Source of the DNA: a virus | Strand: one strand, 5' to 3' | Virus record (IMG/VR): IMGVR_UViG_3300023223_001051 | Location: 1-30,179 of that record | Length of the DNA stretch: 30,179 nt | Shown here: positions 4,268 through 21,926 of the stretch, in pieces | How the letters are laid out: every line of letters starts with the position of its first letter | How positions within the stretch are numbered: the first letter of the stretch is position 1 | Program-made: the position numbers and the translations under genes | Notes under the pieces: model-generated | The model's input: only the letters and a program-made list of their open reading frames with translations | Told to the model about the DNA's origin: nothing | Databases searched by the model: none

Positions 4268-4294
4268 TAAAGGTTTTCTGAGAATTGCCGATAG
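4268..4294 (+). promoter_or_regulatory. Sigma28 (FliA)-type promoter
   Basis: TAAAGGTT (4268-4275), 11 nt, GCCGATAG (4287-4294). This matches the flagellar sigma28 consensus TAAAGTTT-N11-GCCGATAA at 14 of 16 positions with exact spacing. It lies 35 bp before the GTG start at 4330, directly behind the terminator that closes the upstream unit. It would drive 4330-5183. Confidence 0.75.
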
Positions 4295-4758: not shown

Positions 4759-4962
4759 ATGTCAAAAATTAATCCTGAACTACTTGATACAAAAGCAACA
4801 CACAAACTGAAAGACGGTACCCCTATTAAATTATTCAAGTCCTGTGCCGAAAGATTTGATTTCGATGGAAATTTGTCCGGAACGGCCGAAATCATGGACA
4901 GCTCAAGTAAGGGGAAGTGGACTTCTGTTTCGTTGAAAGAATTAATCAAAGTAGAATGCTAA
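4759..4962 (+). CDS. Small phage protein, paralog of the protein at 14258
   Basis: A 67-residue protein with ATG at 4759 and an AAAAGAA-type site upstream. I do not recognise the family. It is clearly homologous to the 66-residue product at 14258: both share KINPELL near the N-terminus, then KATH, DGT, KLF, FDFDG, GTAEIM, a KGK-x-T turn and a C-terminal ELI, at matching spacing. The shared core suggests a small beta-rich domain. Both copies lie downstream of sigma28-type promoters. It is the second gene of the 4330-5183 cassette. Confidence 0.7.
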   Translation: MSKINPELLDTKATHKLKDGTPIKLFKSCAERFDFDGNLSGTAEIMDSSSKGKWTSVSLKELIKVEC

Positions 4963-12189: not shown

Positions 12190-12430
12190 CCTCTAATTCC
12201 CCCATAAAACACTTGCCCGAACAAAATATGTAGGTTACTCTAGTTGGCTTCTGATTCTCTGTTAACGAAGAGAAAAAACAAGTGTCTGGATCATCTAGTA
12301 TCTTCCTACAAGCATTACTATCACACCATGCATTCTCAACTTTCTTCTCTAGCCCCAAGACTTCTAAGGCACTAAGGTTACTAGCCATCTCACTTAATGT
12401 ATATGCATTTACGCCTTCACATGTAAGCAT
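12182..12430 (-). CDS. Small Cys-rich protein
   Basis: An 82-residue protein with ATG at 12430 and GAGGAG eight nt upstream. It has Cys residues in CEGVN, WCDSNACRKIL, DTCFF and IFCSGKCF; the spacing CxxxxC and CxxxC could bind one metal ion, which is inference. Second gene of the long minus operon, six bases after another Cys-containing small protein gene. Confidence 0.6.
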   Translation of the reverse strand: MLTCEGVNAYTLSEMASNLSALEVLGLEKKVENAWCDSNACRKILDDPDTCFFSSLTENQKPTRVTYIFCSGKCFMGELEDG

Positions 12431-12435
12431 GCCTT

Positions 12436-12621
12436 TTACTCCTCAACTTCATAATTTCGAACGCCACGTCGACCGTGCTTTTCTAAGACTTTGCGGCACT
12501 TTGAGCAAACACCGAGCACCTCACCTTTTCTAATCTTTCCCTTAACTTGGAACCTACCGCACCATTGCTCATGATGTTCAAGTCTGCCCGCGCCTTGACT
12601 ACTTTCATGTATTTTTACCAT
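12436..12621 (-). CDS. Small basic protein with CxxC motif, first gene of the long minus operon
   Basis: A 61-residue protein with ATG at 12621 and an AAGGGA site upstream. It contains VCSKCRK and an isolated Cys at WCGR, with nearby His residues (IHESS, EHHEQW), so a small zinc-binding nucleic-acid contact domain is possible. It is the promoter-proximal gene of the 12621-5148 operon, directly behind the minus-strand promoter at 12647-12675. Function unknown. Confidence 0.62.
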   Translation of the reverse strand: MVKIHESSQGAGRLEHHEQWCGRFQVKGKIRKGEVLGVCSKCRKVLEKHGRRGVRNYEVEE

Positions 12622-12646
12622 AATAATTCCCTTTCATTGAGAGCAG

Positions 12647-12675
12647 AGTGTATCACTGAATACTTGACTTCTCAA
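12647..12675 (-). promoter_or_regulatory. Sigma70-type promoter for the long minus-strand virion operon
   Basis: On the minus strand TTGAGA (12675-12670), 17 nt, TACACT (12652-12647), about 26 bp before the ATG at 12621. The -35 differs from TTGACA at one base, the -10 from TATAAT at two. Its -35 hexamer directly abuts the -35 of the divergent plus promoter (12664-12669), so two polymerases could not bind at once. Confidence 0.6.
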
Positions 12676-12693
12676 CCCCCCTTGACGTATAAT
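12664..12693 (+). promoter_or_regulatory. Sigma70-type promoter for the Fis-type regulator gene
   Basis: TTGACT (12664-12669), 18 nt, TATAAT (12688-12693): near-consensus. The predicted transcription start near 12700 is just upstream of AAAGGA and the ATG at 12717, giving a very short leader. Divergent from, and overlapping the footprint of, the minus promoter. Confidence 0.78.
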
Positions 12694-12716
12694 CCGCCTA
12701 ACTCGAAAGGAATAAA

Positions 12717-13178
12717 ATGAATTTACGACAGTTCAAAATAAAATATACCACTAATATATTTATACTTTGTGGATATAGTATCAAAAGAACCCAGAAGGTC
12801 ACAGGCATGTGGCCTGAAGAAATCAAAAGATATCTAAGCATAGACCATAAAATTAAAGCCGTGCCAGTTGGCCCAATTCAAGTAGACCCCTGGAAAACAG
12901 TAGAGCGTAAGCACGTCTTATCAGTGTATAAACACTTTGAATACCATAAAACAGCGGCTCAAACCGCGCTAGGCATAAGCGGTAGCGGACTGTCGTTTAA
13001 ACTCAAAAAACTTGGGGTGTTAAAGCACACGTTGACTCACGCAACACCCATCCAACTGTTTAAATCAGCTATGAATTTTAAAAGTATACATGAGTGGTTT
13101 GACGCAGACCCTGATGAAGTCCAGGCCGCGTATAAGGCAGGTATCACTGATGAAATCAAAAGGGAATTGGGGTGGTAG
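12717..13178 (+). CDS. Fis-type helix-turn-helix DNA-binding protein, probable phage regulator
   Basis: A 153-residue protein with a near-consensus sigma70 promoter and AAAGGA five nt before the ATG. Residues about 62-101 match the Fis-family HTH (HTH_8) pattern: VERKHVLSVYKHFEYHKTA, then ALGISGSGLSFKLKKLG, where family members read N-x-x-x-AA-x-x-LGI followed by L-x-x-KLKKLG. The N-terminal 60 residues and C-terminal 50 residues are not recognised. Such HTHs occur at the end of sigma54 activators and in Fis itself; here no AAA+ domain is present, so a small DNA-binding regulator is likely. Its position beside back-to-back promoters suggests that it controls the switch between them. The stop codon lies inside the first copy of a 23-bp direct repeat. 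Confidence 0.7.
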   Translation: MNLRQFKIKYTTNIFILCGYSIKRTQKVTGMWPEEIKRYLSIDHKIKAVPVGPIQVDPWKTVERKHVLSVYKHFEYHKTAAQTALGISGSGLSFKLKKLGVLKHTLTHATPIQLFKSAMNFKSIHEWFDADPDEVQAAYKAGITDEIKRELGW

Positions 13179-13207
13179 CCTATTTGAAACTTCTAGTCAT
13201 TCCATAG
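13172..13207 (+). pseudogene. Duplicated 5' end of the thymidylate-synthase-like gene (11-codon remnant)
   Basis: GTG at 13172 opens a frame reading MVAYLKLLVIP then stop. Its first eight codons are identical to the start of the gene at 13538 (apart from the start base). AGGG lies seven nt upstream of the GTG. I infer that this was the original start, overlapping the stop of the Fis-type gene, before a segment was inserted and the first 23 bp were duplicated. Confidence 0.5.
13173..13195 (+). repeat. 23-bp direct repeat, copy 1
   Basis: Identical over 23 bp to 13539-13561, 366 bp apart. It spans the stop codon of the Fis-type gene. The two copies bracket a sigma28-type promoter and a complete 76-codon gene. 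Confidence 0.9.
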
Positions 13208-13223
13208 AGTTAAGCAGTTTTTC

Positions 13224-13250
13224 TAAAGTTATTCTGTCTTGTGCCGATAA
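13224..13250 (+). promoter_or_regulatory. Sigma28 (FliA)-type promoter
   Basis: TAAAGTTA (13224-13231), 11 nt, GCCGATAA (13243-13250): 15 of 16 positions of the FliA consensus with exact spacing. 54 bp before the ATG at 13305. A 35-bp window around it (13223-13257) is 32/35 identical to the minus-strand copy at 15526-15492, spacer included. Confidence 0.82.
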
Positions 13251-13304
13251 AAGGTTTGGAAGCGAGGTGTGGAATGAATGCAATTGACACAAAAGGGAGC
13301 AAGT

Positions 13305-13535
13305 ATGACGCGATATGTATTTGAAGAAATTAAAGTAAAAAGAGTTAAGAAGTTTAAAGATGCTGAGACTGGTAGAAAAAGGCAAGTAACACGTACTTTT
13401 TTGCAAACTCTGAATCCTTTCAATGTGACCCCCGAACAAATCCCAAAATCAAGAGATCAAATCTTGACAGAAATAAATGAAGAGGCAAATAGATGGGTGC
13501 GATCTAATAGTTTTGAAAAACGGGGCACTTTCTAG
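13305..13535 (+). CDS. Small hypothetical protein of an inserted cassette
   Basis: A 76-residue protein, ATG at 13305 with AAGGGAG five nt upstream; a longer frame from 13278 lacks such a site. Basic N-terminal half (EEIKVKRVKKFKDAETGRKR) and a C-terminal helix (RDQILTEINEEANRWV). No family recognised. It has its own sigma28-type promoter and lies between the two 23-bp direct repeats, so gene and promoter were probably acquired together. Confidence 0.65.
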   Translation: MTRYVFEEIKVKRVKKFKDAETGRKRQVTRTFLQTLNPFNVTPEQIPKSRDQILTEINEEANRWVRSNSFEKRGTF

Positions 13536-13537
13536 CC

Positions 13538-14131
13538 ATGGTAGCCTATTTGAAACTTCTAAGCACTGTTTTGTCTCGTGGCCTAAGATCCAAGGAATGT
13601 CTGTATTTATCAGGCCAAGTGCTCCAGATAAAACAATTGCCTGATATGAGCGTGGAATGGAACTTCACCGTTAACGAATATATATCGGCTAGGTATGGTC
13701 ATCGATTCCACAAAAGTTACAAATCGACTTGGGGCTCTGATAACTTCGGCATAAAACTGAGAAATATCAGAACTAATATACGTGCGAACAGAGAGGCATC
13801 CTTAATCGACAATGAGCATTCTTTGTTTTTCCATGTCAACGGAAAGCGTCTAGATTTGTCAGTTCACTTGAACTCTGTGGATGTACTCGACGCCCTCCCA
13901 TATTGGTTAGCCGCAATCGGCCTTGTATGGCGGGTGCTGTCATATGAAACAAAAGTTCCGCTCGGCAATCTAACAGTCCTTATCGGCCACGCTTGGATAC
14001 CCAAGGCCGCAATGATAGAGGCTAAGACAATATTAATAGGGCCGGTGCCTAAAACTCAAACAGTTACTATAAAGAAAACGGCGGGTAGGAATTTCGCTGT
14101 GAAGAATTTTAACCTAATAAATCAAATCTAG
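13538..14131 (+). CDS. Thymidylate-synthase-fold protein with degenerate active site
   Basis: A 197-residue protein that I align by eye with the C-terminal two thirds of thymidylate synthase / dCMP hydroxymethylase. IRTNIRANREASLI (77-90) resembles the Arg-rich segment before the active site. DNEHSLFFHVNGKRLDLSVH (91-110) matches the P-C-H-x-x-x-QF strand region, but Glu93 stands where catalytic Cys is expected. LNSVDVLDALPYWLA (111-125) matches the QRS-x-D-x-x-x-GLPFN-x-A segment with Arg and Asn lost. GNLTVLIGHAWI (143-154) matches the GD-x-HIY region with Asp changed. A catalytic role in methyl transfer is therefore unlikely; nucleotide binding or a structural role is possible. The ATG lies at the edge of a 23-bp repeat and has only a distant GGGG upstream. 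Confidence 0.55.
   Translation: MVAYLKLLSTVLSRGLRSKECLYLSGQVLQIKQLPDMSVEWNFTVNEYISARYGHRFHKSYKSTWGSDNFGIKLRNIRTNIRANREASLIDNEHSLFFHVNGKRLDLSVHLNSVDVLDALPYWLAAIGLVWRVLSYETKVPLGNLTVLIGHAWIPKAAMIEAKTILIGPVPKTQTVTIKKTAGRNFAVKNFNLINQI
13539..13561 (+). repeat. 23-bp direct repeat, copy 2
   Basis: Second copy of the repeat at 13173-13195. Here it encodes the first codons of the thymidylate-synthase-like gene. Beyond the repeat the two flanks diverge at once, as expected at an insertion or duplication boundary. Confidence 0.9.
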
Positions 14132-14184
14132 TCGACATTGTAGATTATTTAGACAGAAGAAAGAAAGATCTCAGTGATTTTGGG

Positions 14185-14198
14185 GTATTTCAAAATAC
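14185..14198. repeat. Short palindrome next to a sigma28-type promoter
   Basis: GTATTT (14185-14190), CA, AAATAC (14193-14198). It ends four bases before the -35 element at 14202, so it could be an operator. Short and AT-rich, therefore weak evidence. Confidence 0.3.
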
Positions 14199-14201
14199 TT
14201 C

Positions 14202-14228
14202 TAAAGGTTTTTGAAATATTGACGATAT
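14202..14228 (+). promoter_or_regulatory. Sigma28 (FliA)-type promoter, weaker -10
   Basis: TAAAGGTT (14202-14209), 11 nt, GACGATAT (14221-14228): 13 of 16 positions, exact spacing. It shares the TAAAGGTT variant with the promoter at 4268, which drives the operon holding the paralogous gene. ATG of the target gene is 29 bp downstream. Confidence 0.6.
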
Positions 14229-14257
14229 AGTAGTTATCAAACACACAGGAGGCTATT

Positions 14258-14458
14258 ATGATGATGTTAAAAATCAATCCAGAACTATTGAGCAAAAAAG
14301 CAACACATGAAATGTTTGATGGTACTTTGGTTAAATTGTTTACTATGGATGAATCCTTTGATTTTGATGGAAGAAAAGTGGGCACAGCAGAAATCATGAA
14401 TGGTGCAGATAAAGGTAAATACACAACAGTTGTTATTGAAGAATTAATTGTTATCTAA
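14258..14458 (+). CDS. Small phage protein, paralog of the protein at 4759
   Basis: A 66-residue protein, ATG at 14258 with AGGAGG five nt upstream. It shares with the product at 4759 the segments KINPELL, KATH, DGT, KLF, FDFDG, GTAEIM and KGK, in the same order and spacing; the C-terminus is EELIVI. The DNA of the two copies has diverged, so the duplication is not recent or one copy came from a related phage. It is a single-gene unit with its own sigma28-type promoter, convergent with the TerS candidate. Function unknown. Confidence 0.72.
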   Translation: MMMLKINPELLSKKATHEMFDGTLVKLFTMDESFDFDGRKVGTAEIMNGADKGKYTTVVIEELIVI

Positions 14459-14498
14459 ATACTAAAGGCCAAAAATGAGCTTAATCTACGTCGGTCAG

Positions 14499-14975
14499 TT
14501 AATCTTCGAAGAAATCACCGAGACTTGAAATTAGAAGTAATTGCTTATACTTCTGGCTTGCCTCGACTGGGCTTATATCCTTAGAGATCAAAGGGATTTC
14601 ATCCTGCCCTTTATGTGTAATGGTCTGCTCGTCCTTGTAGTCCCGTCTAAAGTTATTTTTCATCATGAACTGAAAAGTCCCTGACTTATGATGCCCAAGA
14701 TCACCTTTTGATGCGTCCCGTCCTATATTTTCCCAATAGGCTTGCGAGCACATCGAGGCTACCTGATAGGCGTCCTCAAAGTCCTCGTTATAATCTGGGC
14801 CCCCTTGAGCCAAGAACGCATTAAAACGGCGCTTTGATAGCCCAGTGACAAGTATTATCTCATTACGAGTGCCCCCCGATTGCCCGGCGTCCCGCATCGC
14901 CGCCAACATCCAAGGTTCAAACGTCTTCAAAATTTCTGTGGGCAAACACATTTGCCCGTTATTATCATACGGCAC
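14499..14975 (-). CDS. terS: Terminase small subunit candidate
   Basis: A 158-residue protein beginning with GTG at 14975, supported by AGGGGG five nt upstream. Residues about 30-65 hold an HTH-like region (GGTRNEIILVTGLSKRRFNA). The central part AYWENIGRDASKGDLG and then FQFMMKNNFRRDYKDEQTIT followed by HKG is the pattern seen in many phage small terminase subunits, which bind pac or cos DNA and deliver it to TerL. The gene is about 6.7 kb from terL and in a different operon, behind a Cys/His-rich protein and a sigma28-type promoter. The assignment rests on motif recognition, not on neighbourhood. Confidence 0.65.
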   Translation of the reverse strand: MPYDNNGQMCLPTEILKTFEPWMLAAMRDAGQSGGTRNEIILVTGLSKRRFNAFLAQGGPDYNEDFEDAYQVASMCSQAYWENIGRDASKGDLGHHKSGTFQFMMKNNFRRDYKDEQTITHKGQDEIPLISKDISPVEASQKYKQLLLISSLGDFFED

Positions 14976-15455: not shown

Positions 15456-15498
15456 TTCTTTGGAGAAAATCAAGTCGAAAGCATCAACTATAAACCTC

Positions 15499-15525
15499 TT
15501 ATCGGTATAAGACAGAATAACTTTA
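15499..15525 (-). promoter_or_regulatory. Sigma28 (FliA)-type promoter
   Basis: Minus strand: TAAAGTTA (15525-15518), 11 nt, ACCGATAA (15506-15499): 14 of 16 consensus positions, exact spacing. A copy of the promoter at 13224 with the same spacer (32 of 35 bases identical). It faces the Cys/His-rich gene and the TerS candidate. Confidence 0.8.
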
Positions 15526-15547
15526 GGCTTTTATTGTAACTCATTGA

Positions 15548-16466: not shown

Positions 16467-16508
16467 AGGTATTAATCTCCATTGGTTTATTTTCAATTTC
16501 AATTATAC

Positions 16509-16535
16509 TTATCGGTAGAGCTCTGGAAAACTTTA
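16509..16535 (-). promoter_or_regulatory. Sigma28 (FliA)-type promoter
   Basis: Minus strand: TAAAGTTT (16535-16528), 11 nt, ACCGATAA (16516-16509): 15 of 16 consensus positions with exact spacing. ATG of the target gene is at 16466. A CCCTAATAGGG palindrome (16538-16548) begins three bases upstream of its -35 element, so binding there could control it. Confidence 0.82.
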
Positions 16536-16537
16536 GC

Positions 16538-16560
16538 CCCTAATAGGGTTTGAGGCCACT
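16538..16560 (+). repeat. 23-bp inverted repeat, left arm
   Basis: The exact reverse complement of 16824-16846. It starts with CCCTAATAGGG, continues TTTGAGGCCACT, and so joins the palindrome motif to an iteron half. Arms are 263 bp apart. Confidence 0.88.
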
Positions 16561-16823
16561 GAGGCCACATTTTGACCACCAGTAAATAATTTTTGCCCGA
16601 ATTCGTTAGTGAAGCCAGGGGGTTAAGGAAAGTGGCCTCAGTGGCCAAAAAATACCCCCCTTTCAAACATATATAATACACATATACCCCATATTCTATT
16701 TTTTCAATCTAAAGTCTTTAAGAAATGAATAATGAGGCCACTGAGGCCACTTTGCTCTAACCTTTTGACGTTAATAGGTAATTCGGGATTTTCGGTGGCC
16801 AGTGGTGGTCAAAAAGTGGTACA

Positions 16824-16846
16824 AGTGGCCTCAAACCCTATTAGGG
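16824..16846 (-). repeat. 23-bp inverted repeat, right arm
   Basis: The reverse complement of 16538-16560. It is followed at once by another GAGGCCAC unit (16846-16853) and GGCCACTT (16858-16865). Confidence 0.88.
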
Positions 16847-16903
16847 AGGCCACTTTCGGCCACTTCGTGTCAATATATATAGCCTCTTTTCATACTCACG
16901 GCA

Positions 16904-16935
16904 CCTATTAGGGGCTGACAACCTCCCTAATAGGG
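16904..16935. promoter_or_regulatory. Paired CCCTAATAGGG-type palindromes upstream of the AbrB-like gene (putative operators)
   Basis: CCTATTAGGG at 16905-16914 and CCCTAATAGGG at 16925-16935; further copies at 16538-16548 and 16836-16846. The last unit ends two bases before the -35 of the sigma70 promoter at 16938. The spacing of 21 bp between the two units is two helical turns, as for cooperative operator sites. The binding protein is not known; the AbrB-like product of the next gene is the obvious candidate. Confidence 0.55.
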
Positions 16936-16937
16936 GA

Positions 16938-16966
16938 TTGACAGTTACCTCTGATCCCGCTAGTAT
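16938..16966 (+). promoter_or_regulatory. Sigma70-type promoter for the AbrB-like gene
   Basis: TTGACA (16938-16943), 17 nt, TAGTAT (16961-16966). Consensus -35 and spacing, -10 with two changes. The transcription start would be near 16973, 25 bp before the ATG. Confidence 0.75.
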
Positions 16967-21509: not shown

Positions 21510-21926
21510 ATGACCAGAGAAGAGGCAATAGAACTAATCGGGCCATTAGCAGAAGCGCTAAAAATTCTAACCGAAGGGGGAGAAGATTCGAAGGCTAAAA
21601 AAGCAGCGGATGCAAAAGCTAAAAAAGCAGCGGATGCAAAAGCTAAAAAAGCAGCGGATGCAAAAGCTAAAACAGAAGAAGTTACGGAAACTCCCACTGT
21701 GGATGACGACCTTTTTGGGGAGGATGACGGTGAGCCTGCTGAGGTAAAAACGCCTGGGGAGGTTAAAACATTAGTTCTTGAGTGGATTCAAAGCGACCCA
21801 GATAAAAATCGGCCAATAGCTCAAGAGACCTTTCTAAAAATCACAGGGCTAGAAAAAATGAACAAAGTCACAGACAAAAATGCGACTGAAGTCTATGGGA
21901 AACTTGTAGCAGCTTTTAAAAAATAA
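21510..21926 (+). CDS. Hypothetical protein with Lys/Ala-rich repeat linker
   Basis: A 138-residue protein; the ATG at 21510 follows AAAAGGA by about seven nt. Three parts: a short helical N-terminus (MTREEAIELIGPLAEALKIL), a low-complexity linker made of the repeated octapeptide AKKAADAK (residues about 28-55), an acidic hinge (VDDDLFGEDDGE), and a C-terminal globular region of about 55 residues (VLEWIQSDPDKNRPIAQETF and onward). The linker is encoded by perfect 24-bp tandem repeats and may vary in length. A terminator hairpin follows. Function unknown; two-domain adaptors with such linkers often bind nucleic acid or protein partners. Confidence 0.65.
   Translation: MTREEAIELIGPLAEALKILTEGGEDSKAKKAADAKAKKAADAKAKKAADAKAKTEEVTETPTVDDDLFGEDDGEPAEVKTPGEVKTLVLEWIQSDPDKNRPIAQETFLKITGLEKMNKVTDKNATEVYGKLVAAFKK
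21594..21672 (+). repeat. 24-bp tandem repeat inside a gene
   Basis: Three perfect copies of a 24-bp unit (21594-21617, 21618-21641, 21642-21665) and a partial fourth (21666-21672). Each unit encodes eight residues, so copy-number change keeps the reading frame. Confidence 0.92.

Follow-up and report, generated by a model that had tools for sequence, protein, structure and literature searches.

A promoter and a small gene enclosed by a duplicated gene start in a tailed-phage contig: a probable recombination scar

A clear published parallel for a phage cassette bounded by direct repeats is LRRHood of the Subcluster C1 mycobacteriophages, where genes 43–46 occupy 1.35 kb between 29-bp direct repeats; relatives carry a single copy, and recombination within the repeat has been proposed (PMC3029335). 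Phage morons are described in the same source as one reading frame and a promoter between two genes that were apparently once contiguous (PMC3029335). MPMEs, the ultra-small mobile elements of mycobacteriophages, as far as that source describes them (PMC3029335, citing Sampson et al. 2009), have terminal inverted repeats, occur as identical copies at several sites, and show a 6-bp addition. In T4-type phages, small genes are shuffled by way of PeSL regulatory cassettes, repeats that lie at gene boundaries, according to the summary in PMC4503421 (citing Arbiol 2010 and Comeau 2014). Finally, Cluster K mycobacteriophages contain start-associated sequences (SAS), a dispersed 13-bp ribosome-binding-site element present in many copies (PMC3203893).

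The locus described here lies in a 30,179-bp linear virus contig, the whole of which was analyzed and is referred to as the window. As in LRRHood, extra sequence is located between two exact short direct repeats at a gene boundary. LRRHood, however, comprises four genes, has its repeat at a gene 3′ end, and has a known empty site, whereas here the insert measures 343 bp, a gene start forms the repeat, and the empty site is a prediction. The initial annotation had considered a long target duplication unusual around an added gene; for long direct repeats around an added segment, the 29-bp repeats of LRRHood provide a precedent (PMC3029335). With MPMEs the locus shares a very small insert, and none of their traits (terminal inverted repeats, several copies, a 6-bp addition) was seen here. 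Unlike PeSL promoter–terminator elements, as these are summarized in the citing source, the 23-bp repeat is coding sequence and occurs in two copies only. Like SAS, the repeats are found at translation starts; unlike SAS, they represent the coding start of one gene.

The window encodes a portal, a terminase, DUF1353, virion structural proteins, an M15-type endolysin, a VapE-like primase-helicase, an Enc34-type ssDNA-binding protein, a DUF2800/PD-(D/E)XK nuclease, and a family A DNA polymerase. It belongs to a tailed phage and probably covers about half of the phage genome, judging from the 50–60 kb of many terminase relatives. On the left of the locus is a helix-turn-helix gene of 153 amino acids (12717–13178, plus strand), which has no Pfam match and whose Fis-type assignment was made by eye in the initial annotation. 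Upstream of it, a sigma70-type candidate matching 11 of 12 consensus positions (TTGACT-18-TATAAT, 12664–12693, plus strand) is probably the original promoter of the Fis-type and the following thymidylate synthase (TS)-like gene, with the qualification that seven sigma70-type sites in the record against 5.9 expected make it a match by consensus only.

The sequence TGGTAGCCTATTTGAAACTTCTA is present on the plus strand at 13173–13195 and again at 13539–13561, with 23 of 23 positions identical and a start-to-start distance of 366 bp, as initially reported. No third copy at 73% identity or above was detected in the 30,179-bp record, where an exact-repeat search returned only one longer exact direct repeat, a protein-coding tandem array at 21.6 kb (24-bp tandem repeats at 21585–21678 inside a small gene, coding for a Lys/Ala-rich AKKAADAK array). 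Across 100 Markov-1 simulations preserving the dinucleotide composition of the window, the length of the longest exact repeat had a median of 15 and a maximum of 18 bp, and the observed 23-bp repeat is therefore beyond chance.

The two copies differ in what follows them. Copy 1 begins at a GTG codon preceded by a ribosome-binding site (AAAAGGGA), overlaps the TAG stop of the Fis-type gene (13176–13178), and reads GTG GTA GCC TAT TTG AAA CTT CTA GTC ATT CCA TAG, or VVAYLKLLVIP*; that is, the frame VVAYLKLL continues into unrelated codons and a stop. This GTG-led 11-codon remnant (13172–13207, plus strand) is, by its translation and alignment with ThyA, the displaced start of the TS-like gene. 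Copy 2 represents codons 1–8 of that gene, whose present ATG lies 2 nt beyond the stop codon of the small gene g76. Both the shared eight codons and the restart of the downstream gene at a new ATG, noted from the first reading of the DNA, are thus borne out.

The TS-like gene (13538–14131, plus strand) encodes 197 amino acids. Its assignment is based on matches to PF00303 (E 0.0026) and phrog_160 (E 0.0022) and on best PDB matches that are thymidylate synthases; each of these is weak alone, and the agreement of the N-terminus with ThyA adds to them. The protein lacks the catalytic-cysteine segment, other active-site residues, and much else, and is probably a non-catalytic homologue unlikely to be an active synthase. 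A structure model made without an alignment was poor (pLDDT 37) and was set aside. Gapless alignment anchored at the first residue was used to decide whether the eight codons are part of the TS-like gene or a feature of the junction. The repeat codons MVAYLKLL match the Escherichia coli ThyA N-terminus MKQYLELM, and the agreement extends through MVAYLKLLSTVLSRG against MKQYLELMQKVLDEG, with 7 of 16 residues identical, no gaps, and an anchored score of 32. The best other placement on ThyA scored 9, compared to 32 for MVAYLKLLSTVLSRGL against MKQYLELMQKVLDEGT, a value not attained in any of 20,000 shuffles. The same anchored test with Td of Aeromonas phage Ah1 gave a score of 17 (p 0.00035).

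The repeat thus carries the genuine TS N-terminus, copy 1 is a TS-like start stranded beside the Fis-type stop, and an ancestor would have carried both genes stop-on-start. Joining the flanks in a script produces an intact GTG-started frame (VVAYLKLLSTVLSRGL...) behind AAAAGGGA, overlapping the Fis-type stop, and the predicted empty-junction sequence is GGGGTGGTAGCCTATTTGAAACTTCTAAGCACTG. The ancestral junction proposed at the outset thereby gains independent support from the ThyA match and the intact joined frame, which together argue strongly for a former direct junction of the Fis-type gene with the TS-like gene.

The data are best explained by a small-gene cassette whose borders record a recombination event: it lies between two genes that were once coupled, and the TS start is present twice; we consider this account likely. 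The left edge of the repeat coincides exactly with the start codon (GGGG|TGG versus GCCA|TGG), which is where two parental sequences would naturally cease to match. This edge fits a single illegitimate crossover between two related phages, in which a Fis-type–TS parent, broken after codon 8, was joined upstream of the promoter in a promoter–g76–TS parent, so that the Fis-type side would be the newcomer and no target-duplicating insertion would have occurred. Such an event needs only one new junction, at 13195/13196, but it requires two parents with identical TS starts, none of which is known in the collections searched; we regard it as unlikely. Cassette insertion with duplication and one illegitimate crossover between relatives would each leave the same structure and are hard to tell apart. 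Copy 1 might instead have been retained because it serves the TS-like gene as a short leader frame or a regulatory decoy, given that it is undecayed and still has its start codon and ribosome-binding site. A functional repeat of this kind seems extremely improbable, however: the sequence has no further copy in the record, copy 1 passes into unrelated sequence beyond codon 8, and recency accounts for the identity without function.

The unique segment between the repeats (13196–13538, plus strand) has a GC content of 37%, compared to 42% for the window, and encodes only g76 (13305–13535, plus strand), a 76-amino-acid protein. The sharp edges of the repeat and a length near the 439 bp of a mycobacteriophage MPME would suit a genuine mobile element, or a site-specific integration event, that duplicated a 23-bp target or core, either as an MPME-like ultra-small element or as a cassette moved by an integrase acting in trans. 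Against this stand the absence of terminal inverted repeats above 7 bp near the segment ends and of any recombinase or mobility gene within it, as well as a g76 family with no known mobility function and no constant boundaries. Furthermore, only the promoter block of the segment recurs in the record, no DNA match was obtained in phage records, and an exact 22-mer of the repeat is absent from other IMG/VR viral contigs. A mobile element is therefore very unlikely. An old tandem duplication of the neighbors as the source of the insert was ruled out, similarity scores falling within those of shuffled sequences.

Two population variants, one with and one without the cassette, could in principle have been concatenated in the assembled contig. 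We judge such an artefact highly improbable, because all frames are intact on both sides, the contig contains no N, and g76 has a good ribosome-binding site and a stop 2 nt before the next ATG, features not expected of a random join.

The cassette carries a sigma28 (FliA)-type promoter, TAAAGTT-N12-GCCGATAA (TAAAG-N15-CCGATAA), at 13224–13250 on the plus strand, some 55 nt upstream of position 13305, where g76 likely starts; the site is a consensus match only, at 15 of 16 positions. A second copy of the promoter block, 35 nt long and identical at 32 of 35 positions (91%) including the spacer, precedes a 139-amino-acid minus-strand gene (15492–15526, minus strand). An extension of this 15.5-kb match into the 3′ end of the Fis-type gene was ruled out, as only scattered AT-rich identity was found. 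The pattern TAAAG-N15/16-NCGATA is present at 4268, 13224, 14202, 19375, and 22713 on the plus strand and at 16535 and 15525 on the minus strand. With at least 13 of 16 FliA consensus positions required, seven sites were counted against 0.45 expected; these strict matches are six of the sites just listed plus one inside the polymerase gene. A loose pattern allowing three mismatches was not above chance (12 versus 11.3 expected). Five of the seven sites are followed, at a distance of 24–43 nt, by a reading frame that has a ribosome-binding site, and the sites precede small genes on both strands. One such gene (14258–14458) directly follows a sigma28-type promoter and has a paralog 9.5 kb away at 4759–4962; the two encode about 66 and 67 amino acids, respectively, with a DNA identity of 71% over 82 nt.

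About seven sites of this kind are spread across the phage, and the cassette promoter, being of the phage's own class, is not peculiar to the insert. The terminase relatives show no such excess of sigma28-type sites, and in a limited literature search no phage using flagellar sigma promoters was found described. A phage running several genes on flagellar-type promoters would be unusual.

These results bear on the moron label in the initial annotation. The repeats do enclose a sigma28-type promoter and a 76-codon gene, as claimed, and like a moron g76 is a frame with a promoter of its own between apparently once contiguous genes. In contrast to morons, no terminator follows g76, there being no terminator-like site on the plus strand in 12400–14600, and the membership of the promoter in the phage's own class weakens the label. 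"Moron" is thus a loose, partial fit for the g76 unit, and a foreign origin is conjectural. The 32/35 promoter match elsewhere in the genome is explained as well by acquisition from a relative or by internal copying as by a foreign moron.

The g76 protein belongs to phrog_35236 (E 5.5e-8), whose members include proteins of Vibrio phage phi50-12, Pseudomonas phages Lana, PMBT3, and UAntarctica, and Tsukamurella phage TPA4, among others. The family was found in 59 viral loci, no common neighborhood was apparent in the four loci inspected, and the family is scattered over unrelated phages. Many members have a CxxC...HxxC pattern; the g76 of the window falls in a subtype without these Cys/His ligands. 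Loss of zinc ligands within this phage was ruled out, given that the non-zinc subtype exists in many phages. An AlphaFold2 model of g76 (pLDDT 84) shows two long strands and a helix, with no significant PDB match and, among viral models, matches only to its own family. Repeated leader or start segments flank 4 of 55 g76 relatives (loci L044, L048, L056, and L069; in L056, for example, 44 nt at about 91% identity), compared to 4 of 165 control small tandem genes. With p = 0.11, a special enrichment of g76 relatives between gene-start repeats was not significant; flanking by repeats seems to accompany the accretion of small genes in phages generally and not to be peculiar to the g76 family.

Searches of IMG/VR with the Fis-type, g76, and TS-like proteins, with the promoter block, and with the helicase, as well as a DNA search of phage records, yielded no relative with this neighborhood. 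The nearest terminase relative in IMG/VR is 57% identical, one GTDB locus was obtained by terminase (Bosea, 53%), and terminase relatives carry none of the neighborhood. These outcomes, from collections in which records very close to the window may be missing, reflect the absence of a usable relative and are not evidence against an empty site. A single 23-bp copy with a GTG start provides a clean sequence signature by which future relatives can be recognized.

In the favored account, the Fis-type gene of an ancestor would have ended where the TS-like gene began, at its GTG start codon, and both genes were probably read from the 12.66-kb promoter. Illegitimate or short-homology recombination may then have placed the promoter and g76 between them, leaving the start codon and the first eight TS-like codons in two copies. 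The TS-like gene, its ATG being 2 nt after the g76 stop, would probably be translated by coupling to g76 and probably also transcribed from the sigma28-type promoter. Because both 23-bp copies are still identical, the event was probably recent, and recombination between them would be predicted to restore the empty site exactly. Which part is the newcomer we can only infer. Against this account, no empty-site relative was found in the collections searched, neither junction has a donor for comparison, and the insertion is inferred from one assembled contig.

The locus represents ordinary phage gene shuffling at a recent stage, a fresh case of small-gene gain in which the scar still displays the original junction and the downstream gene has been put back in phase by a new start codon. 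More speculatively, units of a small gene and a promoter of the phage's own sigma28 class may be exchanged by recombination at gene starts, leaving start-codon repeats through which the downstream gene stays translatable and the unit can be lost precisely; we consider this reading, a reversible route of gain and loss at translation starts that recurs in unrelated phages, improbable.

Other repeats were observed in the window. In an operon at 4.3–5.2 kb, 28–30 nt are common to three successive gene starts at 79–83% identity. Beside the primase-helicase gene, a dense cluster of repeated palindromes at 16500–16950 contains GTGGCCTCAGTGGCC in both orientations, CCCTAATAGGG several times, and a 44-bp inverted repeat (89%; 16538–16581/16803–16846), and looks like a replication origin or operator region.
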